64,000 nucleotides of DNA. It comes from Methanosarcina acetivorans C2A. Its GTDB lineage: Archaea > Halobacteriota > Methanosarcinia > Methanosarcinales > Methanosarcinaceae. Each line of letters starts with the position of its first letter. Positions within the stretch are counted from its first letter, which is position 1. Positions 3,864-47,251 of the stretch are shown piece by piece. Both the position numbers and the translations under genes were made by a program. Location: positions 4,588,001 to 4,652,000 of the forward strand of contig NC_003552.1 in NCBI RefSeq assembly GCF_000007345.1. The letters are read 5' to 3'. Under the pieces are notes generated by a model. The model did no database searches and was not told the origin of the DNA. It worked only from the letters and a program-made list of their open reading frames with translations.

Positions 3864-4397
3864 TCAGGTTTGAAGCTCGCCTACTCCATCGAGCTTTTTA
3901 ATAACTTTAGCCGGATAACCCAGAGCAAGGCTGTTCGGAGAAATATTACGAGAAACTACTGATCCGACGCCGATTATCGAGTTATCTCCGATCTCGACTC
4001 CCTGGGTGATTATACATCCGGGATTTACGGAAACCCCGCGCCCTATTTTTATGGGAGCTATACTCCTCGGATAAGCCTGCCTTGTGGTAAGGCTGCCTCT
4101 CGAATGGGCGGACAGGATACAGCGGTCCCCAATTTCAGCATAGTCCCCCACTGTGATCATCTCGGGGTGAATCCTGTCAAAAATCACATCATAGCCGATG
4201 TACACATTCTCCCCGATGTTTACACCCCTCATTTTATGCAGCTTAGCTCTCCAGGAAGGGACAGGAGCGCAGGAAGCGAGGCGTTCAAGAGCCCAGTTTT
4301 TCAGGAACTTAATTCCAAAGATGATTTTATTACTATGATAATGATCAGCCACTTCATGAAAATTTATTTTATCTCTGTTAGATACAACAGCAGTCAT
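3864..4397 (-). CDS. hexapeptide-repeat acyltransferase
   Basis: A 177-residue protein with a left-handed beta-helix region from about residue 65 to 160: repeated hydrophobic-GxN/D hexapeptides such as VNIGEN, ITVGDY, IEIGDN and IIGVGS, ending LALGYPAKVIKKL, as in maltose/galactoside/serine O-acetyltransferase relatives. It probably acetylates a sugar or similar acceptor from acyl-CoA, and the acceptor is unknown. The ATG at 4395-4397 is preferred because a GGGGGG ribosome-binding site precedes it by about seven bases; an upstream in-frame ATG at 4410-4412 overlaps that site. A TATA-like ATATATTT lies near 4463-4474 on the coding strand's upstream side. It stands alone between two pseudogenes. 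Confidence 0.8.
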   Translation of the reverse strand: MTAVVSNRDKINFHEVADHYHSNKIIFGIKFLKNWALERLASCAPVPSWRAKLHKMRGVNIGENVYIGYDVIFDRIHPEMITVGDYAEIGDRCILSAHSRGSLTTRQAYPRSIAPIKIGRGVSVNPGCIITQGVEIGDNSIIGVGSVVSRNISPNSLALGYPAKVIKKLDGVGELQT

Positions 4398-4734
4398 GGT
4401 AATGCCCCCCATTTTGCGGTGAAAAACACCTGAAACCTACTTTTCATTACTCTCCCACCGATAAATATATTTCCTATAAAACTTGAAAGAGAAATTAATT
4501 GAAGTTTGAACCGTAGTAATGGAGATTTTCGAGATATAATTTCGAAAGAAACTTAATTTTATGATAATCTATCAGGTGAATTATTATCGGTAATGTCAAT
4601 AGTTATCTATCTGGTAATATTATTATCTATTGTGTGAATGATTACATCAAGGGACCGATTATAGGTCACGGAACGGTTCCTGGCATGTGATGGGTTTATC
4701 AGGTTCTGTTTCGGGTTACAATTTTCATGAGTAA

Positions 4735-5837
4735 AGACTTTTTTATTTCTATGCATCATTCGGGCACAGTTCACGACAGCAGTAGCACCGAATACACTTT
4801 TACTGGTTGATTTTGAGGGCCCTGCCCACTTTCTCAATCGCATGCGTTGAACAGTCCATAACACCGGCTTTGCAAAATGCACATTTTGAGGTGTTGATGA
4901 AGGGTTTTACTGTGAGCTGTTTCCGAAGGGCTCTCATCAGAAGTGAGGCACCATCGCGGTGACTCCGCCTTCGGGCATTTTAAACCTTAGATTAAATTCC
5001 TGCAGAGTCACACCTGCAATTTCAGGATTTTGTGTCCCGAACCCTCTCGAAAGCGCGGCTTTGTTTGTGGGCACTTTTAGCGGATCAATCCCTATCAGTT
5101 CGGAAGCAACAATGTCAAAGGCTACACAATCGTAACTTGCCAGGACCACTCCTGAAGCAATGGGTGTCCCATTGGCAGGGCCGCTTCCCTCCATCCCGAC
5201 TACTCCGTCAATAACTGCGAGACAGGGTTTGACTACCGAATATATATCGACAACGGTCTCCCAAAGCGGTCACGGCCTTCAAGGGCATGGGCCTGCTTTC
5301 GGATTTTCTGAGGGACAGCCCCAAAGAAGTTTTTTACAGCCCCGGTGTAGAGAGTAAGTTCATGGGTCTTGAGGTTCGGAAGTGAGATTACCAATTACCA
5401 CATCAGCCTTAAGGACTGCTTTTGCGATGTACAGGCTCGGAAACTGTCTGGCATTGGAAACAGCGACCTCGGTGTAACCTGAGGTCTCGAAATTGATAAG
5501 TTCTGCACCGCAGGCGGATGCAATCCCTTCAATTCCCGATGCACGAAAAGCCTCCGAAGTCGTCGTAGACCCCGGTTTCGCAATCCCGGACCCGTCTCCT
5601 ATAACAGGGATACCCCCTGCCTCCCGGACAAGCTCACACATGGCAGCCACTACTGCAGGATGAGGGGTGACAGCAGCTTCCGGAGCCCGGATAGCGAGCA
5701 CGTTAGGTTTAAGGAGTACGCTATTTCCCGGAGATATCAATACTCTCAAGCCCGCCTATCAGAGTAAGAGCCTCCTGAATCGCAACTTTTACACCAGAAT
5801 AGTCGAAACAGCGTACTATGTAAACTCTGGAGTTCAT
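4735..5837 (-). pseudogene. DUF362 / dicluster-ferredoxin protein, multiply frameshifted
   Basis: Reading across frames reconstructs a full DUF362 protein with a C-terminal ferredoxin domain. The N-terminus starts at the ATG at 5835-5837 (MNSRVYIVRCFDYSG) and breaks near 5750. The main domain (LLKPNVLAIRAPEAAVTPHP, GDGSGIAKPGST) runs to about 5360. Another frame carries KTHELTLYTGAVKNFFG, and VVKPCLAVIDGV through FNLRFKMPEGG ends at 4937. A further frame gives CAFCKAGVMDCSTHAIEK and CIRCYCCRELCPNDA, two [4Fe-4S] motifs, with two in-frame stops. The damage comprises at least four frameshifts and two nonsense codons, so it is not functional as read. DUF362 proteins are widespread in methanogens but of unproved function. 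Confidence 0.75.
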
Positions 5838-6023
5838 GCTTATCAACCGGAATTACTGATAGATTAATATTGAAGGATTAATGTTGACTCGAATGCCGGG
5901 ATTGTTACCTTTCAGAGGAAAAACATCTTAAGAGAAAGTGCCTCTTAAGACAAAAACCTCAACGCATTTCTGACAGGAATAGAGGCCTATTTTTATTTAA
6001 CAATTTACTCTATACCTGCCCTT

Positions 6024-6140
6024 ATGCAGCTACCTCCGTATATGCAGCTACCTCCGTATATGCAGCTATCTCCGTATATGCAGCTATCTCCGTATATGCA
6101 GCTACCTCCGTATATGCAGCTACCTCCGTATATGCAGCTT
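6024..6140. repeat. 18-bp tandem repeat, six and a half copies
   Basis: The unit ATGCAGCTACCTCCGTAT occurs six times in perfect register plus a half copy. Copies three and four share a C-to-T change at one position. The last half copy overlaps the TAA stop codon of the minus-strand NAD-synthetase-like gene (6139-6141). Because 18 is a multiple of three, the repeat makes an artificial plus-strand open frame. Confidence 0.95.
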
Positions 6141-7203
6141 ACCTGTCCAGATAGAAGACCGGGGGTACAGCCCGTATATACTCAGTGGTGTCCTTTACCC
6201 GGTCGATATGCCTCCAGGCTTTTTCGATGGTATCTCTGGGAAGCCCGGTGTTCTTTTCAGTTACCTCTAAAGACATGTTGTGTTCTCGAGAATACAGGAG
6301 CTGGTCTATAATGTGCATGGGCATACGCCAGTAAAACTCCTCGTCAGTTGTATAATGGCTCCAGGTGTCGGCACTTGGAGGGCGTTTTATGATCGCCTCA
6401 TTTACTCCGAGGTGCTTTGCCAGAGCATAGACCTGGGTCTTATAGCAGTCTGCAAGCGGTTCGAGGTCTACGCCGCCGTCCCCATATTTGACATATTGAC
6501 CCAGGACAACCTCGGTCTTGTTTGTTGTGCCGCAAACAACGTAATTCATTTTTTCGGCATACATATACTGGACTAACATTCTTGACCTCTGTTTGACCCC
6601 CTGCAGCCCGATAAGTTCCAGATAATCGGCTGCCTTCAACCTGTGTTTGGCAACCGTTTCCCCGTCTTTTATCAGCCGGATATAAGGAACATTCAAAAGT
6701 TCCCGGTCAAGGAAATCAGGCAAAACCAGTGAGGTTTTGTGTATTTCGGGATCATATTCGGGACAGGCTCTCTTTAAAACCTGATCTTTCTTCTCATAAA
6801 TATTAAGGGCTTCCAGGATTGGAGAAATCGGGACCTCCTCGTACGAAACCCCAAGGCTTTCACAGATTTCTGCTCCAAGGGTCTTGCTTGAAGGAGCCGA
6901 TTCTTTTTCCGGGAGAAGAAGACCGTATACTTTTTCCTTGCCGAACTCCTGTACGCAAAGCGTAAGGGTTACGGCGGAGTCAACACCTCCGGAAACCCCC
7001 AGAACCACTCCTTTTTTCTTAAAAGCCGTGACCTGCTCCCGTATAAAGCCCCTGAGGCTTGCAGCAAGCTTATCAATATCTCTGTTCAGTTCCTCAAGAA
7101 TTTGAACGTTGCCAGTGTCCACTAACTTTCCGGCGTTATTTTTAGTTAACTGCCCTGCATTATTCTCCATAGTTTGCGTTACACTACCTTCAGTTATCTG
7201 CAT
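6139..7203 (-). CDS. divergent NAD-synthetase-like amide synthase
   Basis: A 354-residue adenine-nucleotide alpha-hydrolase protein. Residues 71-76 are SGGVDS, the pyrophosphate-binding P-loop. The segments GTTNKTEVVLGQYVKYGDGG and KTQVYALAKHLGV match ammonia-dependent NAD synthetase. Differences from canonical NadE are an N-terminal extension of about 60 residues with a small internal duplication (ENNAG/KNNAG), a long insertion between the P-loop and the TNKTE motif, and YTTDEEFYWRMP in place of the usual QTDEDELG segment. The ATG at 7201-7203 has AGGGGAA eight bases upstream; an upstream TTG lacks this. It is the last gene of the PPTase-ACP-ligase-PP-loop set, so it may amidate another carboxylate through an acyl-adenylate rather than make NAD. 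A role as the cell's NadE remains possible. Confidence 0.8.
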   Translation of the reverse strand: MQITEGSVTQTMENNAGQLTKNNAGKLVDTGNVQILEELNRDIDKLAASLRGFIREQVTAFKKKGVVLGVSGGVDSAVTLTLCVQEFGKEKVYGLLLPEKESAPSSKTLGAEICESLGVSYEEVPISPILEALNIYEKKDQVLKRACPEYDPEIHKTSLVLPDFLDRELLNVPYIRLIKDGETVAKHRLKAADYLELIGLQGVKQRSRMLVQYMYAEKMNYVVCGTTNKTEVVLGQYVKYGDGGVDLEPLADCYKTQVYALAKHLGVNEAIIKRPPSADTWSHYTTDEEFYWRMPMHIIDQLLYSREHNMSLEVTEKNTGLPRDTIEKAWRHIDRVKDTTEYIRAVPPVFYLDR

Positions 7204-7318
7204 AATATTATTCCCCTGATCGATTATTTGTTTGATAATTAGGTATTCGTTCAAACTGCCGGCAACTATGTATCAAATCACCGGATTTCTTACTAAATGA
7301 CCTTTCACTGAGATAATA

Positions 7319-7378
7319 TCTGAGCAAATTTTATCTGAGCAAATTTTATCTGAGCAAATTTTACCTGAGCAAATTTTC
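7319..7378. repeat. 15-bp tandem repeat, four copies
   Basis: The unit TGAGCAAATTTTATC is repeated four times in the spacer between the PP-loop gene's stop codon (7383) and the NAD-synthetase-like gene. One C/T change is seen in the last copies. It lies within the probable operon. Confidence 0.9.
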
Positions 7379-7382
7379 AGCA

Positions 7383-8405
7383 TTATTTTTGCAAATTATT
7401 GAGCTTCATATCCAGCTTCTCTGCTGCGTCCTTTATAAGCGGCTGTGAGAGTTCCTTGTGAAGTTTATCCAACCCTTCTTCCCTTGACATTTCCCCGCTT
7501 CGGACAAGCCCTGCTATATCAAATGCATACGGATGGAAGCCGTACTTTTCCAGGTGGTTATAACATGCAAAAGAATTCAAGGTACAGTTGGTTGAATTAC
7601 TGTCATTGAGAGCAGGAGATTTCCACCCGAGATTCACTACGGTCTCAAGTACTCTATCTTCACTATAATCCCATAGGCAGAGCGGGTGTAGAATAGAGGG
7701 GGCAACCTCACCTATATTTTTGATTACCTCATTTTTAACAAGGAACTGTTCATCCCTGTCCTCAACACCTATTTTTTGAAGCTGCTTTTCAAAAAGGTTC
7801 CTTGACCACTGTATGAAATTAGCTGACAGTTTGATTATGGGATTTGGCGACTGCCCTGCCGTAAAAGCAAAAACGATAAAAGGCGCTTTCTGGATTATGG
7901 CCTGTTCAATCAGTTTCTGTTTGATGATACCGATGCAGATATTACAGATGTCGCTTGCCCTGTACTTGGCAAACTTCGGAAACGCATCACAGGATTCGGC
8001 TGCCTTTCGGAAGAGATCGTAGAGGACATCCTTTTCCATTGTCAGCTTAAAATAATCGCATCCCGTAATTTCGCACATTTTCTTTGCGTTTTCCACGGCA
8101 TAATCCGAGATAAAACCGTTATCAAACTGGACAGCAAGGACTCTCAGGAAGGGATAGTCTTTTTTGAGTTTGTAAAGTGTATATGAAGAGTCTTTTCCAC
8201 CTGAAAGTGCAAATATAACATCATAATTGCCCCTGCCACTATATTCTTTGAAGAGTTCTTCAATCCTGTTAAGATACTGCTCCTTCTCCTGAGAAGAAAG
8301 AGGAACATAGGTCTCACAGAAATGGCAGAGCCCGTTTTCTTCGTTGATTTCTATGCCTGGAATATCCGAGTCCAGAACACATTTTTTACATACTAGCTTT
8401 GACAT
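7383..8405 (-). CDS. PP-loop ATPase, N-acetyl sugar amidotransferase-like
   Basis: A 340-residue protein. The N-terminus has a zinc ribbon, C6-x2-C9 and C27-x2-C30 (CKKC, CHFC), followed by the PP-loop SGGKDS at residues 68-73. This order and spacing match WbpG/PseA-type sugar amidotransferases, which adenylate an N-acetyl group and replace its oxygen with nitrogen to give an acetamidino group. Two more cysteine clusters (CNIC near residue 153 and C-x6-C near 275) could bind metal. The ATG has a GAGGAG site eight bases upstream, and the start overlaps the ligase gene by 20 bases, implying coupled translation. No HisF/HisH-like ammonia-channel partner is adjacent, unlike bacterial WbpG loci. 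Substrate is unknown. Confidence 0.8.
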   Translation of the reverse strand: MSKLVCKKCVLDSDIPGIEINEENGLCHFCETYVPLSSQEKEQYLNRIEELFKEYSGRGNYDVIFALSGGKDSSYTLYKLKKDYPFLRVLAVQFDNGFISDYAVENAKKMCEITGCDYFKLTMEKDVLYDLFRKAAESCDAFPKFAKYRASDICNICIGIIKQKLIEQAIIQKAPFIVFAFTAGQSPNPIIKLSANFIQWSRNLFEKQLQKIGVEDRDEQFLVKNEVIKNIGEVAPSILHPLCLWDYSEDRVLETVVNLGWKSPALNDSNSTNCTLNSFACYNHLEKYGFHPYAFDIAGLVRSGEMSREEGLDKLHKELSQPLIKDAAEKLDMKLNNLQK

Positions 8406-9864
8406 GCTGATACTCCTCTATAATGGACCTGTTGGAGATTTTCCCGTTCTCGCTCAGCGGAAGATGGTCAATGAAGAGGATCTCTCTGGGATACAGGTAG
8501 CCTGGCAGGTTCTTCCTGCAAAAAGCAAGAATCGTATCGACGTCAGTTTCCTGATTTGATATGACCATGAGGCTGATCGCACTGCCCATAAGCTCGTGGA
8601 ATACGGGCACAACAAAAACGCTGGAAACCTCATTGTTCATCTCGATCTCTTTCTCGATTTCCCTCGGGTTAACCCGGTGGTCACCTATTTTGATGAGGTC
8701 GTCCTTACGACCAAGCAGCCTGAGGTATCCGCAAGGAAGTTTCTGCGCCAGATCTCCCGTATGCATCCACCCGTCGATGATCTTCATTTCAGTTGCTTCC
8801 TCATCATTAAGGTAACCCAGCAGGATATTGTCCCCCCGGGCAACAAGCTCGCCTGTGATACCAGGTTCTACTGGCCTGTTTTCAGAGTCAAAGACATCCA
8901 GGGTAACCCCTGGAATCGCCTTTCCTATCGTATCGAAAAATTCGTCCACATCCTCTGTCGGCAGGTAGGCAAGCCTTGCTGTAGCTTCCGTCTGACCGTA
9001 CATTGGCAGAATCTGCATACCCGGACTTAACTCCCTGATACTCCGTACGATAGACATGTCCATGGCTCCGCCGGCCGACGCAGCGGTCCTGACATTCGCA
9101 AAGGCTTTTTTGAACCTTTCAGGGTATCTGAGAAGAATACGATAGGTACTGGGCACTCCATAGAAGATGGATACTCCGGATTCAATGAGATTAAAAACCG
9201 GATCCATGAAATTCATCGTTCCCGTACGGACCGACCCTCCGGCCATCAGGTGGGAATTGATTATCGAGTTCCCGAAGGCATGATGCGGAGAGATTACCAG
9301 TGCTCCTTTATCTTTTGAGCTTATGTTCAGAACCTCGATTATCGACCTGGCGTTTGCTACCAGGTTTTTGTCGCTCAACATAACCCCCTTGGGAGTGCCT
9401 GTTGTACCCGAGGTATAAAGAACCAGCCTCAGTTCGGGATTGTTTCTCTCGCATACCACCCTTTTGCTGAGGACCTCCACTGCTGTATCATCAGAAACAA
9501 CGATCACGGTTCCAAAACGTTCAAAAAATCCGTTTCCGAACCTTAAGTATTGTTTTTTCGTTGCAATTATGTTATTGATGCGTGCAGCGTCAAGAATTCG
9601 TTCAAGGCTTAACCCTGGCAATTCGATTGGCAGAGGGATTGCAATGTTACCTGATCGGTATACTGCCATAAGCATTTTTATGTACTGTATGCCGGACTCC
9701 GCGAGTATTGCAAATCCGCAGTGCTCAAAGTCGGTCAGAAATGAGGCAATTGTGCTTATATCCTCATCAAGGCAGCTGTAAGAAATGGACTTTTTCCCCT
9801 CTTCTAGTGCGGTCTGGTGAGGAGTATTTCTGGCATGTTCAGCGATATAAGCATCAATTCTCAT
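8386..9864 (-). CDS. adenylate-forming acyl/aminoacyl ligase
   Basis: A 492-residue member of the acyl-CoA synthetase/NRPS-adenylation superfamily with all core motifs: YTSGTTGTPKG at residues 150-160 (A3), MYGQTEATAR (A5), HTGDL (A7), GRKDDLIKIGDHRVNPREIE (A8), and LSENGKI near the C-terminus carrying the catalytic lysine (A10). It activates a carboxylic acid as acyl-AMP and should load it on a thiol. The next gene upstream, ending five bases before the ATG at 9862-9864, is a free-standing carrier protein, so that is the likely acceptor rather than CoA. A GTG nine bases earlier would overlap the carrier gene stop. The carboxylate substrate cannot be inferred from sequence by eye. Confidence 0.85.
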   Translation of the reverse strand: MRIDAYIAEHARNTPHQTALEEGKKSISYSCLDEDISTIASFLTDFEHCGFAILAESGIQYIKMLMAVYRSGNIAIPLPIELPGLSLERILDAARINNIIATKKQYLRFGNGFFERFGTVIVVSDDTAVEVLSKRVVCERNNPELRLVLYTSGTTGTPKGVMLSDKNLVANARSIIEVLNISSKDKGALVISPHHAFGNSIINSHLMAGGSVRTGTMNFMDPVFNLIESGVSIFYGVPSTYRILLRYPERFKKAFANVRTAASAGGAMDMSIVRSIRELSPGMQILPMYGQTEATARLAYLPTEDVDEFFDTIGKAIPGVTLDVFDSENRPVEPGITGELVARGDNILLGYLNDEEATEMKIIDGWMHTGDLAQKLPCGYLRLLGRKDDLIKIGDHRVNPREIEKEIEMNNEVSSVFVVPVFHELMGSAISLMVISNQETDVDTILAFCRKNLPGYLYPREILFIDHLPLSENGKISNRSIIEEYQHVKASM

Positions 9865-9869
9865 ACACT

Positions 9870-10115
9870 TCACTTCGCCAGTCTGTTTATCAGGGTAGTG
9901 ATTCCCTCCAGAGAATCGAAATTCTCCGGAGTCAGCATTTCTTCAGGAATTTCGATAGAGTATGTTTCACAGATGTAGTCTATCAATTCAAGTAAACCGA
10001 TAGAGTCCATGATGCCATTCTGGGTGAGCGAATCATTATCTCCAAGAACAGCTTCTCGTTCCATGAAAGAATTTTCCTTCAAATAATCAAGTATATTATC
10101 CCTTACTTGTTCCAT
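9870..10115 (-). CDS. acyl/peptidyl carrier protein
   Basis: An 81-residue four-helix carrier protein. GIMDSIGLLEL at about residues 34-44 contains Ser38, the expected 4'-phosphopantetheine attachment site, in the standard DSxxxxEL context. Length and acidity are typical of free-standing ACP or PCP. Archaea lack type II fatty-acid synthesis, so a dedicated carrier protein here points to a specialised pathway. The stop codon lies just ahead of the ligase start, and a phosphopantetheinyl transferase is encoded about 200 bases upstream on the same strand. Together these give a self-contained priming, loading and carrying module. Confidence 0.85.
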   Translation of the reverse strand: MEQVRDNILDYLKENSFMEREAVLGDNDSLTQNGIMDSIGLLELIDYICETYSIEIPEEMLTPENFDSLEGITTLINRLAK

Positions 10116-10316
10116 ACAATCTTACCCCTTATTCAAATTAGATTATTATGTAAGTAACACACACACCTTGCCCATATTAGTTGAAAGCCCACATATAACT
10201 ATGCGATAGAACTATATAAATAATTTGAAACAATTGGTTGCCGTAGAAAACACTGAAAAGAAGAAATTCAGAAGAGTTAAACAGCATCTGGAGACAAAAG
10301 TATTGAACATCCTATT

Positions 10317-10997
10317 TCAATCAGAACTGATTTTCCCGAGGCGGCTGATCTTAATAGTATGTGAGTCCGAATCAGTAATGAGGGAAAAGATGTATTTATT
10401 GTCCAGTAAATAGCTTGAATAAAAAGTATTATTGAAGTCCGGCTCTTTACTGAGAACGGATAACATAGGCTTATTGGAAAACTTGCAATAAGCCTCTCTC
10501 AAAGTCCACTCAATCAGAACGTAGGTGTCACTTTCCGATTTACCAGAAAACGGAGATGCAGGTTGTAGGTATTTCAAAGTATTTTTCAGTGCCATCGGTC
10601 TTTTAATTTCGACATCAATACCAACCTTAACCTTTGAAACTGAAAGAGTTGCGATATTTTCAGAATAAGAGAGACAGATATGCAGCTCATTGTGGTTGAG
10701 TATATGCACTTCCCCAAACTCATCTTTGTAAGTAGCGATCTGAAGGACAGAATTTTTGTTGAGGAGCTGGCATAGGATATGTTTCAAAACCGTTCTGGAG
10801 ACAACATATCTTTTTTTGAAATATGCTGTTTTAAGTTTTTCAAAATGTTCTCTTTCACTGTTGTTGAGACATTCCATACTCAGCGTATCATAATCACCCA
10901 GATCAATAAGAAAGATGAGAACATCGTTTTGTGCCCATAAGTTAGGGAGGTTTTTCAGAGGAACGGAGGAGAGTATAATCGAATTCTCTGTGTACAT
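10317..10997 (-). CDS. Sfp-type 4'-phosphopantetheinyl transferase
   Basis: A 226-residue protein with the two Sfp-family signatures: VGIDVEIKRP (magnesium-binding GxDxE) and, about 45 residues on, WTLREAYCKF (the W-(T/S)-x-(K/R)-E-A-x-x-K motif). It transfers phosphopantetheine from CoA to a serine on a carrier protein, almost certainly the adjacent ACP. The ATG at 10995-10997 is chosen. A GTG 57 bases upstream (11052-11054) lies inside the end hairpin of the neighbouring IS200/IS605 element and would make the N-terminus transposon-derived. That insertion sits only about 50 bases from the start, so native upstream promoter sequence may have been displaced. Confidence 0.8.
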   Translation of the reverse strand: MYTENSIILSSVPLKNLPNLWAQNDVLIFLIDLGDYDTLSMECLNNSEREHFEKLKTAYFKKRYVVSRTVLKHILCQLLNKNSVLQIATYKDEFGEVHILNHNELHICLSYSENIATLSVSKVKVGIDVEIKRPMALKNTLKYLQPASPFSGKSESDTYVLIEWTLREAYCKFSNKPMLSVLSKEPDFNNTFYSSYLLDNKYIFSLITDSDSHTIKISRLGKISSD

Positions 10998-11050
10998 GCA
11001 ACTCACGGCATATTTACTATAGTTACTACAATTGACTGTTATGTGAACTA

Positions 11051-11073
11051 CCACTCAGCTAAAGACTGAGTGG
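11051..11073. repeat. IS200/IS605 end hairpin next to tnpB 3' end
   Basis: CCACTCAG and CTGAGTGG form an 8-bp stem around a seven-base loop. It lies 67 bases past the tnpB stop codon. In related elements this end forms the 3' part of the TnpB guide RNA scaffold, with the guide read from the flanking DNA (here toward 11030). Confidence 0.65.
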
Positions 11074-11139: not shown

Positions 11140-12252
11140 TTACAATCCAATTAGATTTTGATCTATAAGAGCAAATTTCTTGATATTGATAGCGGCATTA
11201 ATATCTCTATCATGTTTTGTTTTACAATCAGGGCAAGTCCATTCTCTGTCTTTTAATTGAAGCTCTTTATTGTAATATCCGCAAACACTACAGAGTTTAG
11301 AAGATGGTTCAAATTGTCCTATTCTCAAGACAGTTTTCCCTAACCATTCAGCCTTATATTCTAACTTTGTACCGAAGCTACTCCATGCCGAATCACTAAT
11401 AGCCTGTGCTAAATGATGATTCTTAACCATGCCTTTAACATTCAGAGTTTCCAGAGCTACGGCTTGGTTTTCGCTAACAAGTCTGAAAGAAAGTTTGTTC
11501 TGAAAATCATTACTCTGATTCGTTATTTTGTCATAGAGTACAGCAAGCCTCTTTTTGGCTTTTGCCCTGTTCTTAGAGCCATTCTGTTTCCTTGATACTC
11601 TTTTCTGAAGTACTTTAAGCCTTTGAAGTGAGTTTTTCAGGTATTTAGGATTCTCTATTTTTTCACCTGTAGAAAGGACTGCAAAATCTCTGATACCTAC
11701 ATCTATACCTACCGTAGTTGATTCTGAAAAAGATTGCTTTGTTGGAAGCTCTCTACCATCTTCAACAAGAATACTGATGTAGTAATGTCCTTTACAAGTC
11801 CTTGAAACGGTAGCTGTTTTAAGCTCGCCTTCAAACTTCCTATGAAGAACCGCTTTAATTTCCCCGATTTTGGGAAGTTTTACGGTATTATTTTCAAAGT
11901 TCACAAAATAGTGTTGAGGTACAGGGAACGATTGTATAGGATTCTTTTTTGACCTGAACTTAGGAAAACCGTTCTTTTCTCTGAAAAATCGAGTGAAAGC
12001 GGATTCAACCTGTTTAGTCATTCCCTGCAATGATTGTGAATTTACTTCTCCTAACCATTCATTAGAAGCCTTCAGAGTAGGAATTAATTTGTTTAAGTCA
12101 AATCTGGAAATTGATTTCCCTGTTTGTTCGTAAGTTTTGATTTTCTGATCAAGTGCCCAATTATAAACAAACCTGCAGCTACCTATATGCTGATTCAATT
12201 GAACAGATTGTGCAGTTGTAGGATAAAGTCTAAATTTGAACGTTTTCATCAT
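11140..12252 (-). CDS. tnpB: TnpB RNA-guided nuclease (OrfB of IS200/IS605)
   Basis: A 370-residue protein with an N-terminal helix-turn-helix-like OrfB segment (KTFKFRLYPTTAQ), a RuvC-like domain with the three acidic residues seen as GIDVGIRDF near residue 183, ALETLNVKGM near residue 270 and DRDINAAINI near residue 347, and a zinc finger CSVCG...CPDC between the last two. TnpB proteins are programmable nucleases guided by an RNA from the element's right end, and they help the transposon persist. All catalytic motifs are present and the frame is intact, so it may still be active although its tnpA partner is not. Confidence 0.9.
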   Translation of the reverse strand: MMKTFKFRLYPTTAQSVQLNQHIGSCRFVYNWALDQKIKTYEQTGKSISRFDLNKLIPTLKASNEWLGEVNSQSLQGMTKQVESAFTRFFREKNGFPKFRSKKNPIQSFPVPQHYFVNFENNTVKLPKIGEIKAVLHRKFEGELKTATVSRTCKGHYYISILVEDGRELPTKQSFSESTTVGIDVGIRDFAVLSTGEKIENPKYLKNSLQRLKVLQKRVSRKQNGSKNRAKAKKRLAVLYDKITNQSNDFQNKLSFRLVSENQAVALETLNVKGMVKNHHLAQAISDSAWSSFGTKLEYKAEWLGKTVLRIGQFEPSSKLCSVCGYYNKELQLKDREWTCPDCKTKHDRDINAAINIKKFALIDQNLIGL

Positions 12253-38626: not shown

Positions 38627-41149
38627 TTATACCTTCACTTCTTCTCCATTTAACACGGCTTCCTCACTGACCCTTACTTCCTTAGTCGTATCCCCGTAGC
38701 TTACGACGTACGGGCCCGTGGGCGCGGTATCGAACTGGGTTTCCCCGGAAATAGAACCCTCGGTAGAATAGGGGACAGTAAATTCATACCTGCCTTCGGA
38801 ATCCGAAGTTGTCGACTGGGAATACTCGAAAGTCCGACCCTGATTGGTAAGAATTGTCGTACTTATTTTGACTGTTTCATTAGGGGAAGCGGTTCCGGTT
38901 ATATTTGCTCCCTTAACATACTCGAAGATTTTGACATAACCCGTATCGACTTCGGAGATGTTGCCTCCGTACAGGTAATTGTAAACCTGTTTGTAGGTGG
39001 TTTCCTGAGTCTGATAAGCCCAGGTCTCGTGCACAAGACGGTACTGCTTAAGGCCGTTTCCGTCAAGAATATGCAGCCTTGACTCCATTGATTTGAAGTA
39101 ACGTTCGGAAGGAAGATACTGGTATCCGCTCCCTGTCCAGTAAGGCTGATAGTATCCGTCGGAATCAAGAGTCCAGGCAGTCATTGCATAGAACTTGCCT
39201 GTTGCCATTTCAACATCCGATACTACATAACGGGCTCCGGCTTTATCCGGGTCAGGGTCAACGGCTTCAAGCACTTCGGTTGCTTCTTCTTCGGATTGGG
39301 CCGTAAAGAATGTAGAAGCTCCCGGCTGGTTCTCGTCTTCAATGCTTCCTCTGCGCCCCCCAATTCCAGCCTGGAAAGGATTGGCATTGGGCATACGGTG
39401 CCCGATAGTTTCAATCCAGTGCCCGTAGTCCCACCAGGACATGACTCCGTAAGCAGTATCAGGATAATCGAAAGTTTCCCCGTCTTCAGGACCCTCGTAG
39501 ACTGCATTGTAGTCCATACCAGGGTCAGGAGTATTGGATTTGAGCCACAGACAAGCTTCAATCCAGGTCCCGTCAGGACCACCTGTGCCTGTTGTCTGTT
39601 TCATAGAGAGACCGTATACTGGGTAAATAAGGACAACTGCTATAACCAGAACCGCAATAACCTGTTCTACCTTAACGAATTTCAAAAATCCCGGGATATC
39701 GGCAGGAGATTTCACGCTGGATCTAAACTTCTCATTGAGCTGTCCCCACTTTACTTTTTCAAGCAGCAGGCCTCCTACATAGGCACTGAGAACCGCAACA
39801 TTTACTGAATAGTAGTACGCAAAACGATTCTGGCCGTAGATGGTAAGGAGGATCAAAAAACTCCAGACAAGAACCAGTACTTCTTCAGGCTTCGGTTTTC
39901 TGAAAAGATTTACAGCCAGTATTAACATTCCAAGGAGAGAAGCAAAGAAACCTGAGGCTGTAAAGTTTCCAAAGACTTTTGACAGGGTAAAAGCTTCACT
40001 CTCGTAAAATATCGAAGACACTTCAGCAATTGTGGCTGCTCCGCCCGTCTGAACTCCAAACACGGTATTTGGAGCATTTATAACCAGGGAGAAAATGGAT
40101 GGAGATACGATTTTTAGTACTAGCATGCCCAGAACGACAATTCCGAGTATAGTCAGAGGGTAGTAGTAAGCTTTTATATTTTTGCTTTTGAACTCCCGCT
40201 CGATAAAACTCAAAACTACAAAACCTGCCATTGATCCAATAGCTGTAGCAAGATGGAACCAGGAGTAATAGTACATCGAGAATCCCATATCGGGATGGAC
40301 GAACGGAAGTATAATTATTGTACTTACCAAAAATGCGACTATACCCGTAAATCCCAGATAGTCACTTGATTCCCCACGGAAGTTATCAAGTACATACTGG
40401 ACCACAGCATAAACCAGAACAATCAATAAGAAAAGAGGAGCTCCGGGCCACGAAAGCTGGTAAGCCGAATACATGACACCGGCCATAATGGAATATATAA
40501 GTGGCTCTTTCAGGACATTGAGATTTTTGGTAATTACATGCTCGAAACGCAATCCTTTTTCTTTTGCAGAAATCAAAGCCAGCATGAAAAACATCATGAA
40601 GAAAGTACTGAATAGAGATTCGGCTATATGATGGTCCGTAAAACCAATAATTGAACGTGAAAAAAACTGCCCTGGAGCAAAAGCAATCAAAATTGCAGCA
40701 AGTATGCCTGTTTTATGGCCTCCGAGATGTTTTCCGATATAATAAACAGGAATGACCGTAAGGGCTCCGAGAACGGCAGGAAAATAGACCCCTACGGTAT
40801 TAACCATGTCCTGACCGGGACTTCCCAGTCCAAGGACCAGAGAGGTTATAGCCATCATCTGGTCAAACAGAGGACCGAAATGGATGTAACTCCCGTTAGG
40901 ATAGTTGGTCATAGGATTGTAAAACATCCTGTTAGGATAGTTTTCAAGGAGAACATTTAGGGTCCGCATATGATACCAGGGATCATTGCCTCCAAACCTT
41001 ACAAACCCATTGGATAGGAACACCGTGCCTGATGGAAGTGTTCTGATCCAGAAAGCTATAAAACCGATTACTGCAACTGCCAGAGTATAAGGCAAGCTGG
41101 ATTTTAGTTTAGACTTAAACGTTGATACAGGGCGATCCTGAGAACTCAT
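38627..41149 (-). CDS. aglB: dolichyl-phosphooligosaccharide-protein glycotransferase AglB, copy 1
   Basis: An 840-residue STT3/AglB oligosaccharyltransferase. The N-terminal half holds about 13 membrane segments, with the DxD-like GGNDPWYHMR in the first external loop and ITDHHI-type GFTDHHIAESLFSTFF. WWDYGHWIETIG is the catalytic-signature WWDYG loop at the start of the external domain, followed by GRRGSIEDENQPGAS. A C-terminal beta-sandwich (ITGTASPNETVKISTT) ends it. It moves a lipid-linked glycan to asparagine in N-x-S/T. The ATG at 41147-41149 follows AGGAGATT. It is one of three tandem paralogues and differs most from the others in its N-terminal half. Confidence 0.92.
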   Translation of the reverse strand: MSSQDRPVSTFKSKLKSSLPYTLAVAVIGFIAFWIRTLPSGTVFLSNGFVRFGGNDPWYHMRTLNVLLENYPNRMFYNPMTNYPNGSYIHFGPLFDQMMAITSLVLGLGSPGQDMVNTVGVYFPAVLGALTVIPVYYIGKHLGGHKTGILAAILIAFAPGQFFSRSIIGFTDHHIAESLFSTFFMMFFMLALISAKEKGLRFEHVITKNLNVLKEPLIYSIMAGVMYSAYQLSWPGAPLFLLIVLVYAVVQYVLDNFRGESSDYLGFTGIVAFLVSTIIILPFVHPDMGFSMYYYSWFHLATAIGSMAGFVVLSFIEREFKSKNIKAYYYPLTILGIVVLGMLVLKIVSPSIFSLVINAPNTVFGVQTGGAATIAEVSSIFYESEAFTLSKVFGNFTASGFFASLLGMLILAVNLFRKPKPEEVLVLVWSFLILLTIYGQNRFAYYYSVNVAVLSAYVGGLLLEKVKWGQLNEKFRSSVKSPADIPGFLKFVKVEQVIAVLVIAVVLIYPVYGLSMKQTTGTGGPDGTWIEACLWLKSNTPDPGMDYNAVYEGPEDGETFDYPDTAYGVMSWWDYGHWIETIGHRMPNANPFQAGIGGRRGSIEDENQPGASTFFTAQSEEEATEVLEAVDPDPDKAGARYVVSDVEMATGKFYAMTAWTLDSDGYYQPYWTGSGYQYLPSERYFKSMESRLHILDGNGLKQYRLVHETWAYQTQETTYKQVYNYLYGGNISEVDTGYVKIFEYVKGANITGTASPNETVKISTTILTNQGRTFEYSQSTTSDSEGRYEFTVPYSTEGSISGETQFDTAPTGPYVVSYGDTTKEVRVSEEAVLNGEEVKV

Positions 41150-41478
41150 AGTAATCTCCTTCAGGAGGTACATTTTTTCAATAAAATATATAATTTGTGT
41201 TAGAAGAAAATTAAGTAGATTTAATAAACTCAAATGCAACTATTTCAGATTAATTTTACATTTAACTTTTAGTAGAACTTCAATACCCTCGCCGCAAGAT
41301 TAACTCCGATGACCTTCAGGATGAATCCACCAATCCTGCAGGAACAAAAAGTTCCTTTACAGTGACTTCATAATGACCATTGATTTTTCAAGCCGTCCCC
41401 CTCAGAGATAATAACACGTCTTCAAAAAACGTGCAAGATACGTAATACACTTAAGAAACCCTAGACCTGTACAATAAC
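41150..41478 (-). other. long leader of aglB copy 1
   Basis: About 310 bases lie between the promoter element and the ATG. The promoter-proximal part is homologous to the leader of copy 2 and has a hairpin AGGAAC/GTTCCT at 41341-41357 (loop of five). An extra stretch of about 170 AT-rich bases sits between a conserved CATCCTGAAGG and the CTGAAGGAGATT ribosome-binding site. Confidence 0.5.
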
Positions 41479-41508
41479 TTTTTTAATAGTATATCTAAAT
41501 AACGGATA
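41479..41508 (-). promoter_or_regulatory. aglB copy 1 promoter element (shared 30-bp, copy 2)
   Basis: On the minus strand it reads TATCCGTTATTTAGATATAC then TATTAAAAAA, identical to 44411-44440. It is a TATA-type promoter by analogy with the hacB copy, although it lies some 330 bases before the ATG. Confidence 0.55.
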
Positions 41509-41671
41509 GGCAGGAGAAATAAAGAGGATTTCTGCAAAAAAAGACAGGATTTTTCAGTAAAACCCAGATTAGAGCATCCATAAAAAAGGAAAGAAAAAGA
41601 AGGAAATAAAAATTCAGTAGAAAGCCAAAAAATATGCTCCAGAATAATTCAGATTTTCATTTCTTCTCCAT

Positions 41672-44224
41672 TTAGATCTTCACTTCTTCTCCATTTAACA
41701 CGGCTTCCTCGGTAACCCTTACTTCCTTAGTCGTATCTCCGTAGCTTACGACATACGGGCCTGTGGGCGCAGTATCAAACCGGGTTTCCCCGGAAATAGG
41801 ACCTTCGGTTGAATAGGGAACAGTAAATTCATACCTGCCATCAGAATCCGAAGTTGTAGACTGGGAATATCCAAAAGTCCGGCCCTGACCGGTCTGAATT
41901 GTAGTACTTATTTTGACTGTTTCATCTGGAGAAACAGTCCCGGTTATGTTTGCCCCCTTTACATACTCGAAGATTTTGACATAACCCGTATTGTCTTCGG
42001 AGATATTACCTCCGTACATGTAATTGTAAACCTGTTTGTGCCAGGTTTCCTGAGTTTGATAAGCCCATGTCTCGTGCACAAGACGGTACTGCTTAAGGCC
42101 ATTTCCGTCAAAAATATGCAGCCTTGATTCCATTGAGTTAAAATAACGGTCGGAGGGGAAGTACTGATATCCACTCCCTGTCCAGTAAGCCTGAGTGTAT
42201 CCGTCGGAATCAAGAGTCCAGGAAGTCATAGCCCCAAATTTTGGATTTACTCCCTCTCCAAATAAAGAAGCCATTTCGATGTCCGAAACAATATAACGAG
42301 CCCCTGCTTTATCCGGGTCAGGGTCAACAGCCTCAAGCACTTCGGTTGCCTCTTCTTCGGATTGAGCCGTAAAGAACGGGGAAGCACCGGGCTGGTTTTC
42401 GTCTTCAATACTTCCTCTGCGTCCCCCAATTCCAGCCTGGAAGGGGTTGGCGTTGGGCATTCGGTATCCGATAGTTTCAATCCAGTGTCCATAGTCCCAC
42501 CAGGACATGACTCCGTAAGCGGTTTCAGGGTAATCGAAAAGTTCTCCATCCTCAGGAGCTTCGTAGACTGAATTGTAGTCCATGCCCGGATCAGGAGTAT
42601 TGGATTGGAGCCACAGACAGGCTTCAATCCAGGGACCATTGGGGCCTCCGGTGCCGATTGTTTGTCCCATTGCAGAGCTATACTCTGGAAGAACGAGCAC
42701 CGCGAATATGGCAAGGACTGCAAAGATCTGTTCTATTTTTACGGATTTGAAGAAACCTGGGAAATCCTTAAGCGATTTTACATTGGTCCCGAAGTTTTCT
42801 TCAAGCCTGTCCCATTTTACAAGTTCAAGGAGTCTCCCTCCCAGATAAGCCCCCATAACCGCAATATTTACCGAATAGTAATATGCAAAGCGGTTCTGAC
42901 CATAGATTGCCATGAACATTAAAAGTCCCCATACCAGAGTCAGAAGTTCTTCAGGTTTCGGTTTCCTGACGATATTTGCCGTCAGGAGGATCATTCCGGC
43001 GATTGAGGCGAAAAAAGCGGGAGCTGTAAAATACTCATACACTCTTGAAAATGAAAATCCTGCAATTTTTCCATTGGGGTAAAATATGGAGTAAACTTCT
43101 GCAATTGTAGAGGGGCCACCAGTCTGGATTCCGAAAATAGAATGAGGAGCGTTTATGACCAGCGAATAAAGAGATGGAACCATAATTTTTGCTGCAATAA
43201 GCCCAAAAATAAAAGCTCCGAATATTACCAGAGGAAAATAATAAGCCTTTAAGTTTCTTTTTTTGAACTCCCTTCCAATGAAACCTAAAACTGCAAAAAT
43301 CACCAATGCTCCCAAAGCTGTAATTACGTGGAACCAGGAGTAATAATACATTGAAAAGCCCATTTCAGGATGAACAAAGGGGAGGATAAGGATCGAACTT
43401 ACAAGAAATGTAACCGTTCCTACAATCCCAAGGTAGTCACTTGACTCACCACGGAAATTATCAAGGACATACTGGATCACGGCATAAACCAGAGTGATCA
43501 ATAAGAAAAGAGACGCTCCGGGCCACGAAAGCTGGTAAGCCGAATACATGACACCAGCCATGATGGAATATATAAGTGGCTCTTTAAGGGCATCGAGATT
43601 TTTGGTAATTACATGCTCGAAACGCAACCCTTTTTCCTTTGCAGAAATCAAAGCCAGCATGAAAAACATCATGAAAAAAGTACTGAATAAAGTCTCAGAT
43701 ACATGATGATCCGTGAAACCTATGATGGAACGGTGCAAAAATTGCCCCGGAGCAAAAGCTATCAGGATTGCAGCAAGTATCCCGGTTTTATGACCTCCGA
43801 GATATTTTCCGATATAATAAACAGGAATTACCGTAAGGGCTCCGAGAACTGCAGGAAAATAGGCTCCTAAGGTATTAACCAGTTCCTGACTGGGATTGCC
43901 CATTCCCAGGAATAGAGAGGTTATAGCCATCATCTGGTCAAACAACGGACCGAAATGGATGTAACTCCCGTTAGGGTAGTTGGTCATGGGGTTGAAAAAC
44001 ATCCTGCTGGGATAGTTTTCGAGGAGAAAATTTAGGGTCCGCATGTGGTACCAGGGGTCGTTGCCCCCAAACCTTACAAACCCATTGGATAGGAAAACTG
44101 AATCAGAGGGGCGTATTCTGATCAAAAAAGCTATAAAACCGATTATCGAAACTACCAGAGTAAAAGGCAAGCTGGATTTTATTTTGGACCTAAACGTTGA
44201 TGTGGGACTATTCTGAGAACTCAT
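41672..44224 (-). CDS. aglB: AglB oligosaccharyltransferase, copy 2
   Basis: An 850-residue paralogue with the same layout: GGNDPWYHMR, GFTDHHVSETLFSTFF, SWWDYGHWIETIGYRMPN and GRRGSIEDENQPGAS. It has two small insertions relative to copy 1: NGKIAG near the middle, and SLFGEGVNPKFG after the WWDYG domain. The N-terminal half is almost identical to copy 3, whereas the C-terminal external domain (WTGSGYQYFPSDRYF, HETWAYQTQET) resembles copy 1. The ATG at 44222-44224 follows AGGAGATT. The duplication may allow different acceptor or glycan preferences. Confidence 0.92.
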   Translation of the reverse strand: MSSQNSPTSTFRSKIKSSLPFTLVVSIIGFIAFLIRIRPSDSVFLSNGFVRFGGNDPWYHMRTLNFLLENYPSRMFFNPMTNYPNGSYIHFGPLFDQMMAITSLFLGMGNPSQELVNTLGAYFPAVLGALTVIPVYYIGKYLGGHKTGILAAILIAFAPGQFLHRSIIGFTDHHVSETLFSTFFMMFFMLALISAKEKGLRFEHVITKNLDALKEPLIYSIMAGVMYSAYQLSWPGASLFLLITLVYAVIQYVLDNFRGESSDYLGIVGTVTFLVSSILILPFVHPEMGFSMYYYSWFHVITALGALVIFAVLGFIGREFKKRNLKAYYFPLVIFGAFIFGLIAAKIMVPSLYSLVINAPHSIFGIQTGGPSTIAEVYSIFYPNGKIAGFSFSRVYEYFTAPAFFASIAGMILLTANIVRKPKPEELLTLVWGLLMFMAIYGQNRFAYYYSVNIAVMGAYLGGRLLELVKWDRLEENFGTNVKSLKDFPGFFKSVKIEQIFAVLAIFAVLVLPEYSSAMGQTIGTGGPNGPWIEACLWLQSNTPDPGMDYNSVYEAPEDGELFDYPETAYGVMSWWDYGHWIETIGYRMPNANPFQAGIGGRRGSIEDENQPGASPFFTAQSEEEATEVLEAVDPDPDKAGARYIVSDIEMASLFGEGVNPKFGAMTSWTLDSDGYTQAYWTGSGYQYFPSDRYFNSMESRLHIFDGNGLKQYRLVHETWAYQTQETWHKQVYNYMYGGNISEDNTGYVKIFEYVKGANITGTVSPDETVKISTTIQTGQGRTFGYSQSTTSDSDGRYEFTVPYSTEGPISGETRFDTAPTGPYVVSYGDTTKEVRVTEEAVLNGEEVKI

Positions 44225-44410
44225 AATAATCTCCTTCAGGATGGACACACCAATCCCGCAGGAACAAAAGTTCCTTTACAGTGATTTCATAATGAACATT
44301 GATTCTTCAAGCCGTCTCCCTCAGAGATAATAACACATTTTCAAAAACGTGCAAGATACATAATACACTTAATAAACTACACTTAATAAACCCTAGACTT
44401 ATAAAATAAG
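44225..44410 (-). other. leader of aglB copy 2 with conserved hairpin
   Basis: This region of about 185 bases between the shared promoter element and the ATG is homologous to the copy 1 leader. The hairpin AGGAAC/GTTCCT at 44260-44275 is kept with a loop one base shorter. The ribosome-binding site CTGAAGGAG follows directly after the conserved block. Confidence 0.5.
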
Positions 44411-44440
44411 TTTTTTAATAGTATATCTAAATAACGGATA
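44411..44440 (-). promoter_or_regulatory. aglB copy 2 promoter element (shared 30-bp, copy 3)
   Basis: It is identical over 30 bases to 41479-41508, and 27 of 30 to the hacB copy. Position is about 190 bases before the ATG of aglB copy 2. Confidence 0.55.
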
Positions 44441-44523
44441 AATCAGATAAATAAAGAGATATCCTGTAAAAAATTACCGGCTTTTTTAGTAAAACTCAGA
44501 TTAGAGCATCCATAGAGATTAAA

Positions 44524-44676
44524 GATGGAAGATAAAAATAGAAGATAAAAATGAAGATAAAAATGAAGATAAAAATAGAAGATAAAAATGAAGATAAAAA
44601 TAGAAGATAAAAATAGAAGATAAAAATAGAAGATAAAAATAGAAGATAAAAATAGAAGATAAAAATAGAAGAAGTT
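44524..44676. repeat. 12-13 bp tandem repeat, about 12 copies
   Basis: Alternating units GAAGATAAAAAT and AGAAGATAAAAAT fill the spacer between aglB copies 2 and 3. The one-base length differences among units point to slippage. The purine-rich strand is the plus strand. Confidence 0.9.
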
Positions 44677-44719
44677 AAAAAAATCAAACTGCTTCCTCAA
44701 ACATATGCTTCAGACGTAT

Positions 44720-47251
44720 TCAAACCTTCACTTCTTCTCCATTTAACACGGCTTCCTCATTAACCCTTACTTCCTTAGTCGTATTCCCGTAGCTTACGAC
44801 ATACGGACCTGTGGGTGCGGTATCGAACCGGGTTTCCCCGGAAGTAGGACCTTCGCTAGAATAGGGAACGGTAAACTTATACCTGCCTTCAGAGTCCGAA
44901 GTTGTAGACTGGGAGTACTCAAAAGTCCTGCCCTGATTGGTCAGAATTGTTGTATTTATTTTTACCGTTTCATTAGGAGCAGCGGTCCCGGTTATATTTG
45001 CACCTTTTACATATTCAAAGATTTTAACATACCCGCTATCCTCTTCGGAAACGTTGCCTCCGTAAAAGAGATTATAGATCTTCTTGTACGCCACCTCGTT
45101 ACTCTGACCCGCCCAGGACTCGTGAACCAGTCGATACTGCTTTAAACCATTTCCGTCAAGGAAGTGAAGTCTGGATTCCATCGAGTTGTAATAACGCATT
45201 GTAGGCAGGATTTGAGAGTTACCTTCTATCTGGTACTGGGCATAGTACCCTTCGGAATCAAGGGTCCAGGTAGCCATAGCCAAAAATTTCCCATCATATA
45301 AAGCAGCCATTTCTATGTCTGAGATCACATAACGAGCCCCGGATTTATCCGGATCAGGATCAACGGCTTCAAGCACTTCGGTTGCTTCTTCTTCGGATTG
45401 GGCCGTAAAGAATGTAGAAGCTCCTGGCTGGTTCTCGTCTTCAATACTTCCTCTGCGCCCCCCAATTCCAGCCTGGAAGGGGTTGGCGTTGGGCATCCTG
45501 TGCCCGATAGTTTCAATCCAGTGCCCGTAGTCCCACCAGGACATGACTCCGTAAGCGGTTTCAGGGTAATCGAAAGTTTCTCCGTCCTCAGGAGCCTCGT
45601 AGATTGCATTGTAATCCATGCCCGGATCAGGAGTATTGGATTGAAGCCACAGGCAGGTTTCAATCCATGGTCCGTTGGGACCTCCAGTGCCTGTTGTCTG
45701 TGCCATTGAAGAGGAGTACTCCGGGAAAACGAGCACCACGAATATGACAAGAACTGCAAAGACCTGTTCTATTTTTACGGATTTGAAGAAACCTGGGAAA
45801 TCCTTAAGCGATTTTACATTGGTCCCGAAGCTTTCTTCGAGCCTGCCCCATTTTACAAGTTCAAGGAACCTCCCTGCCAGATACGCCCCCATAACCGCAA
45901 CATTTACTGAATAGTAGTATGCAAAACGGTTCTGGCCATAGATTGCCATGAAAATTAAAAAGCCCCATACCAGAGCCAGCAGCTCTTCAGGTCTTGGTTT
46001 CCTGACGATATTTGCCGTCAGGAGGATCATTCCGGCGATTGAGGCGAAAAAAGCGGGAGCTGTAAAATACTCATACACTCTTGAAAATGAAAATCCCCCC
46101 TCGGGGTAAAATATGGAGGTAACTTCCCTAATTGTAGAGGGGCCCCCTGTCTGGATCCCAAAAATTGAATGAGGAGCGTTTATGATTAGCGAATAAAGAG
46201 ATGGAACCGTAATTTTTGCTGCAATAAGCCCAAAAATAAAAGCTCCGAATATTACCAGAGGTAAATAATAAGCCTTCAAGTTTCTTTTTTTGAACTCCCT
46301 TTCAATAAAACTTAAAACTTCAAAAATCCCCAACGCTCCTAAAGCTGTAACTACGTGGAACCAGGAGTAATAATACATTGAAAAGCCCATTTCAGGATGA
46401 ACAAAGGGAAGGATAAGGATTGAACTTACAAGAAATGTAACCGTTCCTACAATCCCAAGGTAGTCACTTGACTCACCACGGAAATTATCAAGGACATACT
46501 GGATCACAGCATAAACCAGAGTGATCAATAAGAAAAGAGACGCTCCGGGCCACGAAAGCTGGTAAGCCGAATACATGACACCAGCCATGATGGAATATAT
46601 AAGTGGCTCTTTAAGGGCATCGAGATTTTTGGTAATTACATGCTCGAAACGCAACCCTTTTTCCTTTGCAGAAATCAAAGCCAGCATGAAAAACATCATG
46701 AAAAAAGTACTGAATAAAGTCTCAGATACATGATGATCCGTGAAACCTATGACGGAACGGTGCAAAAATTGCCCCGGAGCAAAAGCTATCAGGATTGCAG
46801 CAAGTATCCCGGTTTTATGACCTCCGAGATATTTTCCGATATAATAAACAGGAATGACAGTAAGGGCTCCAAGCACTGCAGGGAAATAAGCTCCCACAGT
46901 AGTAATCAGATTCTGATCGGGACTTCCCATTCCAAGGAGCAGAGAGGTTATAGCCATCATCTGGTCAAACAGAGGACCGAAATGGATGTAACTCCCATAA
47001 GGATAGTTGGTCATGGGATTGTAAAACACCCTGCTGGGATAGTTTTCAAGGAGAAAATTTAAGGTCCGCATGTGGTACCAAGGGTCGTTACCCCCGAACC
47101 TTACAAACCCGTTGGAGAGGAAAACCGAATTTGAGGGGCGTATTCTGATCAAAAAAGCTATAAAACCGATTATCGAAACTACCAGAGTACAAGGCAATCT
47201 GGATTTTATTTTAGACTTAAACGTTGATGTGGGACGATCCTGAGAACTCAT
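44720..47251 (-). CDS. aglB: AglB oligosaccharyltransferase, copy 3
   Basis: An 843-residue paralogue with GGNDPWYHMR, GFTDHHVSETLFSTFF, SWWDYGHWIETIGHRMPN and GRRGSIEDENQPGAS. Its membrane half is nearly identical to copy 2 over long stretches of DNA (for example 46440-46720 against 43420-43700), but the external domain has its own sequence (YQIEGNSQILPTMRYYNSM, HESWAGQSNEVAYKKIYNLF). The C-terminal sandwich again matches the others. The ATG follows AGGGGATT. It lacks the shared promoter element; the glycosyltransferase gene 113 bases upstream on the same strand may provide its transcript. Confidence 0.92.
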   Translation of the reverse strand: MSSQDRPTSTFKSKIKSRLPCTLVVSIIGFIAFLIRIRPSNSVFLSNGFVRFGGNDPWYHMRTLNFLLENYPSRVFYNPMTNYPYGSYIHFGPLFDQMMAITSLLLGMGSPDQNLITTVGAYFPAVLGALTVIPVYYIGKYLGGHKTGILAAILIAFAPGQFLHRSVIGFTDHHVSETLFSTFFMMFFMLALISAKEKGLRFEHVITKNLDALKEPLIYSIMAGVMYSAYQLSWPGASLFLLITLVYAVIQYVLDNFRGESSDYLGIVGTVTFLVSSILILPFVHPEMGFSMYYYSWFHVVTALGALGIFEVLSFIEREFKKRNLKAYYLPLVIFGAFIFGLIAAKITVPSLYSLIINAPHSIFGIQTGGPSTIREVTSIFYPEGGFSFSRVYEYFTAPAFFASIAGMILLTANIVRKPRPEELLALVWGFLIFMAIYGQNRFAYYYSVNVAVMGAYLAGRFLELVKWGRLEESFGTNVKSLKDFPGFFKSVKIEQVFAVLVIFVVLVFPEYSSSMAQTTGTGGPNGPWIETCLWLQSNTPDPGMDYNAIYEAPEDGETFDYPETAYGVMSWWDYGHWIETIGHRMPNANPFQAGIGGRRGSIEDENQPGASTFFTAQSEEEATEVLEAVDPDPDKSGARYVISDIEMAALYDGKFLAMATWTLDSEGYYAQYQIEGNSQILPTMRYYNSMESRLHFLDGNGLKQYRLVHESWAGQSNEVAYKKIYNLFYGGNVSEEDSGYVKIFEYVKGANITGTAAPNETVKINTTILTNQGRTFEYSQSTTSDSEGRYKFTVPYSSEGPTSGETRFDTAPTGPYVVSYGNTTKEVRVNEEAVLNGEEVKV

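Follow-up and report, generated by a model that had tools for sequence, protein, structure and literature searches.

Five minus-strand genes of the methanogen Methanosarcina acetivorans C2A, encoding a phosphopantetheinyl transferase, a carrier protein, an AMP-forming ligase, a PP-loop enzyme and a NadE-like enzyme, form a conserved cassette and not a chance cluster. They were found in a stretch of 64,000 nucleotides (the window; NC_003552.1, here C1, positions 4588001-4652000, on a single contig of 5,751,492 bases). The cassette lies outside fatty-acid synthesis and classical NRPS assembly lines, and is best read as a free-standing carrier-protein pathway that would amidate and probably thionate or amidinate a small acyl group and transfer it to a surface glycan or a small molecule; the probability of this whole reading is put at about 0.5. 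Archaea are usually treated as being without carrier-protein chemistry, and M. acetivorans is a genetically tractable model methanogen, so a conserved and complete carrier-protein pathway in this organism is of interest. The cassette also links two poorly understood groups, namely carrier-bound PP-loop enzymes and the "NAD synthetases" of PRK00876 type, and, since one locus encodes the carrier along with the enzymes that prime and load it, its substrate is directly testable.

Table 1. Cassette genes in the window (window positions) and related operons of alphaproteobacterial plasmids (positions within each locus).
Feature	Coordinates	Strand	Remarks
Sfp-type 4'-phosphopantetheinyl transferase (PPTase)	10317..11054	-	alternative ATG start at 10997
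Stand-alone acyl/peptidyl carrier protein (ACP)	9870..10115	-	PF00550; invariant Ser38 in DSIGL
AMP-forming acid ligase, expected carrier loader	8386..9873	-	PF00501 and PF13193; invariant catalytic Lys478
PP-loop (AANH) enzyme with N-terminal zinc ribbon	7383..8405	-	invariant C154, C157 and C274; AF2 model
NadE-like ammonia-dependent amide synthetase	6139..7254	-	NF002048/PRK00876; PF02540; conserved part from about residue 49
Remnant of the cassette's DUF362 and 4Fe-4S gene	4937..5749	-	several broken frames
Left-handed beta-helix (LbH, hexapeptide) acyltransferase, intact, at the end of the cassette	3864..4412	-	PF00132
asnB-ACP-AMP ligase-nadE (PRK00876) operons, alphaproteobacterial plasmids (Sinorhizobium, Shinella, Nitratireductor; L170-L172)	L170 5275-10035; L171 5198-10008; L172 5250-9972

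All five open reading frames were recovered by mapping the window, in the order and with the tight packing given in an initial annotation of this DNA; the ACP and ligase genes overlap by 4 bases, and the ligase and PP-loop genes by exactly 20. The five-gene extent proposed there held for these genes but proved too short, as the cassette also includes a DUF362 gene, an LbH acyltransferase gene and, in 22 other loci, a gene for a FabG-like reductase (about 246 aa) located 3' of the NadE-like gene, which is absent from the window copy. An IS605 OrfB/TnpB gene (11140-12252) lies directly upstream of the PPTase gene here and is absent from that position in most relatives. Two tandem repeats flank the NadE-like gene: one (18 bp × 6.7, 6023-6144) extends into its stop codon, and the other (15 bp × 4.1, 7317-7377) lies upstream of it.

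The PP-loop protein was searched against 112 Methanosarcinaceae genomes, and the surroundings of most positives were retrieved and their genes mapped. A close relative (65-90% identity) was found in 51 of the genomes, the order PPTase-ACP-ligase-PP-loop-NadE-like was kept in about 45 of 54 loci, and the 20-base overlap of the ligase and PP-loop genes was retained in 46 loci. When the distribution of the PPTase, established by an independent profile search, was compared with that of the PP-loop gene in 86 near-complete Methanosarcinaceae genomes, both genes were present in 41, neither in 45 and one alone in none (Fisher p about 2e-25); the three discordant genomes were each 60-86% complete and fell outside the near-complete set. 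The recurrence of the gene order in other archaeal genomes, which the initial annotation had put forward as a check, is thus borne out. All cassette genes tested gave dN/dS values of 0.06-0.26, with a value of 0.07 for the LbH acyltransferase, whose downstream position is conserved in most Methanosarcina. The cassette is probably not essential, since it is missing from about half of the Methanosarcinaceae. A second, paralogous cassette was found in the same genome (locus L009, C1:1228492-1234371), containing an ACP, a ligase, a PP-loop protein 77-78% identical to that of the window, a NadE-like protein, an LbH acyltransferase and a DUF362 protein that is intact and has two 4Fe-4S motifs (L009 13573-14706). 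No PPTase was found beside this copy, and a profile search of the genome found none other than that of the window copy. In a tree of PP-loop proteins the second copy clustered with its counterpart, likewise a second copy, from another Methanosarcina species, indicating that the duplication predates the split of the two species.

The presence of a dedicated system for priming, loading and carrying, as claimed in the initial annotation, was supported by the families and motifs of its three proteins, and the predictions that the PPTase primes the ACP and that the ligase loads it are well supported. The best PDB match of the PPTase was Sfp (1qr0, E = 3.5e-9), and it has the motifs (I/V)G(I/V)D(I/V)E and WxxxEAxxK, of which the G-x-D-x-E and W-x3-E-x3-K positions were invariant in the alignment. 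The ACP scored 21.9 bits against PF00550 (cutoff 20.8), its attachment serine, Ser38 of the DS motif, was invariant, and its relatives in the PDB include PltL, PigG and DltC. PF00550 is a weak detector here, the sole ACP that it found in the genome being that of the second copy, and further carrier proteins are possible. The ligase is of ANL type by PF00501/PF13193, with the core motifs TSGTTGTPKG and YGQTE and an invariant catalytic C-terminal lysine (Lys478). At the putative equivalent of D235 of GrsA, which binds the alpha-amino group, it seems to have His instead of Asp (PHHAFGNS; read by eye from the alignment), so that a simple carboxylic acid may be a likelier substrate than an alpha-amino acid.

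Clear relatives outside the Methanosarcinaceae were found in only two genomes among 393 of the phylum (50-51% identity). A pattern scan of 84,980 species returned 46 loci, nearly all from Methanosarcinaceae and Methanomicrobiales methanogens, together with one Thermoplasmata-labelled bin and one Helicobacteraceae bin. In Campylobacterota one true member was found in 397 genomes, the remaining matches being partial ones of canonical WbpG-like type, and no relatives of the PP-loop protein were found in viral contigs. Methanophenazine biosynthesis was set aside as a role for the cassette, which occurs in Methanomicrobiales, methanogens without methanophenazine, and is absent from many Methanosarcinaceae genomes. 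All five families recur in the Methanomicrobiales loci, most of which also encode a GNAT-like protein; these loci mostly lie amid glycosyltransferases, a polysaccharide flippase and polysaccharide and PIG-L deacetylases; one of them (L104) additionally encodes a separate canonical WbpG followed by a GATase. The Helicobacteraceae member consists of ACP, PP-loop and GNAT genes inside an apparent nonulosonic-acid glycan locus. Kinship between the archaeal and bacterial GNAT neighbours was too weak to be claimed (hhalign E = 6e-4, probability 29). The surface modification considered possible in the initial annotation gains support from these glycan surroundings. The cassettes of Methanosarcinaceae lie outside glycan clusters, those of Methanosarcina having no glycan genes directly beside them. 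Elsewhere in the window (38627-47251), glycosyltransferase genes come after a row of three paralogous oligosaccharyltransferase genes, named AglB-like (STT3) by reading, and a protein about 50 kb from the cassette (62400-63572) can be read as a fusion of a CMP-sugar synthetase with a KdsC-like phosphatase, which suggests that nonulosonic-acid glycans may be encoded at that distance. The literature on S-layer glycan structure yielded no usable glycan masses.

Additional relatives of the PP-loop protein were found in bacterial assembly-line settings. In Roseovarius, an NRPS (L167 7220-15268) located in an apparent exopolysaccharide region with a CMP-sugar synthetase has a full PP-loop domain (aa 861-1175) inserted in its adenylation domain, after the core and before the C-terminal part. 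In Streptomyces NBC_01216 the relative is fused to a condensation domain and adjoins asnB and a gene for an A-PCP protein, and in Streptomyces NBC_00470 it lies beside an ACP and a KS. These NRPS-inserted, condensation-fused and ACP-adjacent forms support an action on carrier-bound groups. The NRPS-fused relatives, the precedent of closthioamide (PMC6772006) and the lack of directly adjoining glycan genes in Methanosarcina would also fit a product released as a free small molecule, such as a secondary metabolite of thioamide type, in place of a surface decoration. This is possible but somewhat doubtful, given the glycan surroundings of most Methanomicrobiales loci and of the Roseovarius and Helicobacteraceae relatives, the very broad and strongly constrained retention of the cassette, and the LbH or GNAT acyltransferases that belong to it.

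The zinc-ribbon PP-loop gene had been interpreted as a plain WbpG-like amidotransferase gene, an assignment that did not hold. Its protein scored 122.5 bits against TIGR03573 (WbuX N-acetyl sugar amidotransferase), below the cutoff of 203.2, as did two homologues with 50.8 and 98.6 bits. No HisH/HisF-type glutaminase/synthase partners were found in the neighbourhoods read or adjoining the PP-loop gene of the window. In an alignment of 25 homologues D72 and S73 of the PP-loop (SGGxDS), C154, C157 and C274 were invariant, and the three cysteines, which follow the motif of TtcA, TtuA and CtaC, were retained even in the Helicobacteraceae homologue, which lacks the zinc ribbon and whose gene adjoins that of an ACP. 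An NcsA-type thiolase from the same genome has its CxxC at the aligned position of C154 and C157, whereas all three cysteines were absent from the canonical WbpG compared. In a fold comparison with the AF2 model of the protein (pLDDT 93), the N-acetyl sugar amidotransferase of Legionella ranked first (8wex; 313 residues, Z 23), with the [4Fe-4S] thiolase NcsA next (6scy, Z 12.3). CtaC of the closthioamide pathway is a [4Fe-4S] enzyme that forms thioamides on carrier-bound substrates only, with D77 and S78 in its ATP site and C154, C157 and C284 as Fe-S cysteines (PMC6772006). The residues D72/S73, C154, C157 and C274 match this pattern in a comparison by published residue positions alone, and a carrier protein is encoded alongside the PP-loop gene, as expected of a CtaC-type enzyme. 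The enzyme is thus probably a carrier-dependent thionating or amidinating enzyme, and the missed TIGR03573 cutoff, the lack of a HisH/HisF partner and the three-cysteine motif make sulfur insertion at least as likely as amidation. The CxxC and a distal third cysteine also occur in a further WbpG-like PP-loop protein of the genome (385 aa; L013, C1:4459211-4459579), near which no carrier protein is known, and the motif by itself is therefore no proof of carrier-bound sulfur chemistry.

A chemistry of nitrogen only, in which both the NadE-like and the PP-loop enzymes would add nitrogen and convert a carrier-bound acid to an amide or, by WbpG chemistry, an amidine, is consistent with the Legionella amidotransferase, and not a thiolase, being closest in fold and family, with the ammonia dependence of the NadE-like partner by family, and with AsnB, an amide-forming enzyme, holding the place of the archaeal PP-loop gene in the rhizobial operons described below. 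It is nevertheless considered unlikely in view of the missed cutoff, the invariant cysteines absent from the canonical WbpG compared and the lack of HisH/HisF partners in the neighbourhoods read; moreover, Streptomyces NBC_01216 has both AsnB and a PP-loop relative, so the two are not simple substitutes for each other. The "amidation pathway" of the initial annotation accordingly stands as regards priming, loading and the presence of ATP-dependent carbonyl-modifying enzymes, and not as regards pure amidation, since the PP-loop enzyme carries the cysteine pattern of CtaC.

The NadE-like protein scored 500.7 bits against NF002048 (PRK00876, NAD(+) synthase; cutoff 313). The reading taken from that family name, that it is a true housekeeping NAD synthetase adjacent to unrelated genes by chance, is very improbable and was rejected, since a separate canonical NadE is encoded elsewhere in the genome (C1:4360949-4361677, 288 bits), the gene order is kept throughout the Methanosarcinaceae, and NadE-like genes are tied to ACP and ligase genes in alphaproteobacteria too. 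In the latter, relatives on plasmids of rhizobia and their kin are encoded in asnB-ACP-ligase-nadE operons with genes close together or overlapping, the Shinella operon adjoining exopolysaccharide genes. These associations suggest that the "NAD synthases" of PRK00876 may be carrier-pathway enzymes and that the "NAD synthetases" of this type may be widely misnamed.

The pathway proposed draws on the genes, motifs, conservation and co-occurrence observed; from these, the chemistry of every step and the identity of the metal, substrate and acceptor are predicted. The PPTase would prime the small ACP, and the ligase would adenylate a carboxylic acid, which is probably of another kind than the alpha-amino acids, and attach it to the ACP through a thioester bond. 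With free ammonia as its nitrogen source, the NadE-like enzyme would turn a carboxyl group of the loaded acid or of its precursor into an amide. The PP-loop enzyme, probably with a [4Fe-4S] cluster like those of CtaC and TtuA, would activate a carbonyl on the carrier-bound group and replace its oxygen with sulfur, giving a thioamide, or, less likely, with nitrogen, giving an amidine. Optional FabG-like and DUF362 proteins could reduce or otherwise tailor the carrier-bound group, and the LbH acyltransferase (GNAT in Methanomicrobiales) would finally hand it to an acceptor, for which genomic context makes a surface-glycan amino sugar the likeliest candidate. The most specific form of this proposal, that methanogens use a free-standing carrier, PPTase and PP-loop system, fixed in a large part of the Methanosarcinaceae, to place thioamide or amidine acyl groups on surface glycans, which would be the first archaeal pathway of its kind and a new glycan decoration, is quite unlikely to be correct in full.

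In the literature searched, the cassette matched no pathway and had no function assigned, and several known systems share parts of it. The overall fold and the N-terminal zinc ribbon of the PP-loop enzyme are common to the WbpG/WbuX N-acetyl sugar amidotransferases (TIGR03573; 8wex), from which it differs in its score below the family cutoff, its three extra cysteines, the lack of HisH/HisF partners in the neighbourhoods read and its pairing with a carrier protein. With the [4Fe-4S] tRNA thiolases TtcA, TtuA and NcsA it shares the PP-loop core and the position of the CxxC, but it is encoded in a carrier-protein cassette and has a WbpG-like C-terminal half. The XrtA/PEP-CTERM-associated ligase (TIGR03098) is related to that of the cassette, which scored far below the cutoff of this family (226.9 vs 592.35); XrtA/PEP-CTERM sets combine this ligase with a PP-loop amidotransferase (TIGR03108) in exopolysaccharide settings. 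The alphaproteobacterial asnB-ACP-ligase-nadE operons have the ACP, AMP ligase and NadE-like genes in the order of the cassette, together with a PP-loop amidotransferase and sometimes near exopolysaccharide genes, but in place of the three-cysteine PP-loop enzyme they encode an AsnB that has a glutaminase domain, and no PPTase gene is listed beside them. The closthioamide pathway of Ruminiclostridium cellulolyticum (CtaC and the PCPs CtaE and CtaH; PMC6772006) is alike in its NRPS-independent, carrier-bound chemistry and anaerobic host, and CtaC and the cassette PP-loop ATPase have the CxxC and a third cysteine at matching positions. None of the ATP-grasp beta-alanine loader, peptidyl transferase, transglutaminase and HBA/beta-alanine genes of closthioamide type was found among the genes, family-scanned or labelled, that make up or directly flank the cassette. 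The cassette differs further from that pathway in its archaeal host, its own PPTase, its NadE-like enzyme, the zinc ribbon of its PP-loop protein and its LbH or GNAT acyltransferase. The nearest known systems are carrier-bound thioamidation of closthioamide type and the rhizobial asnB-ACP-ligase-nadE operons, and the cassette is a member of neither.
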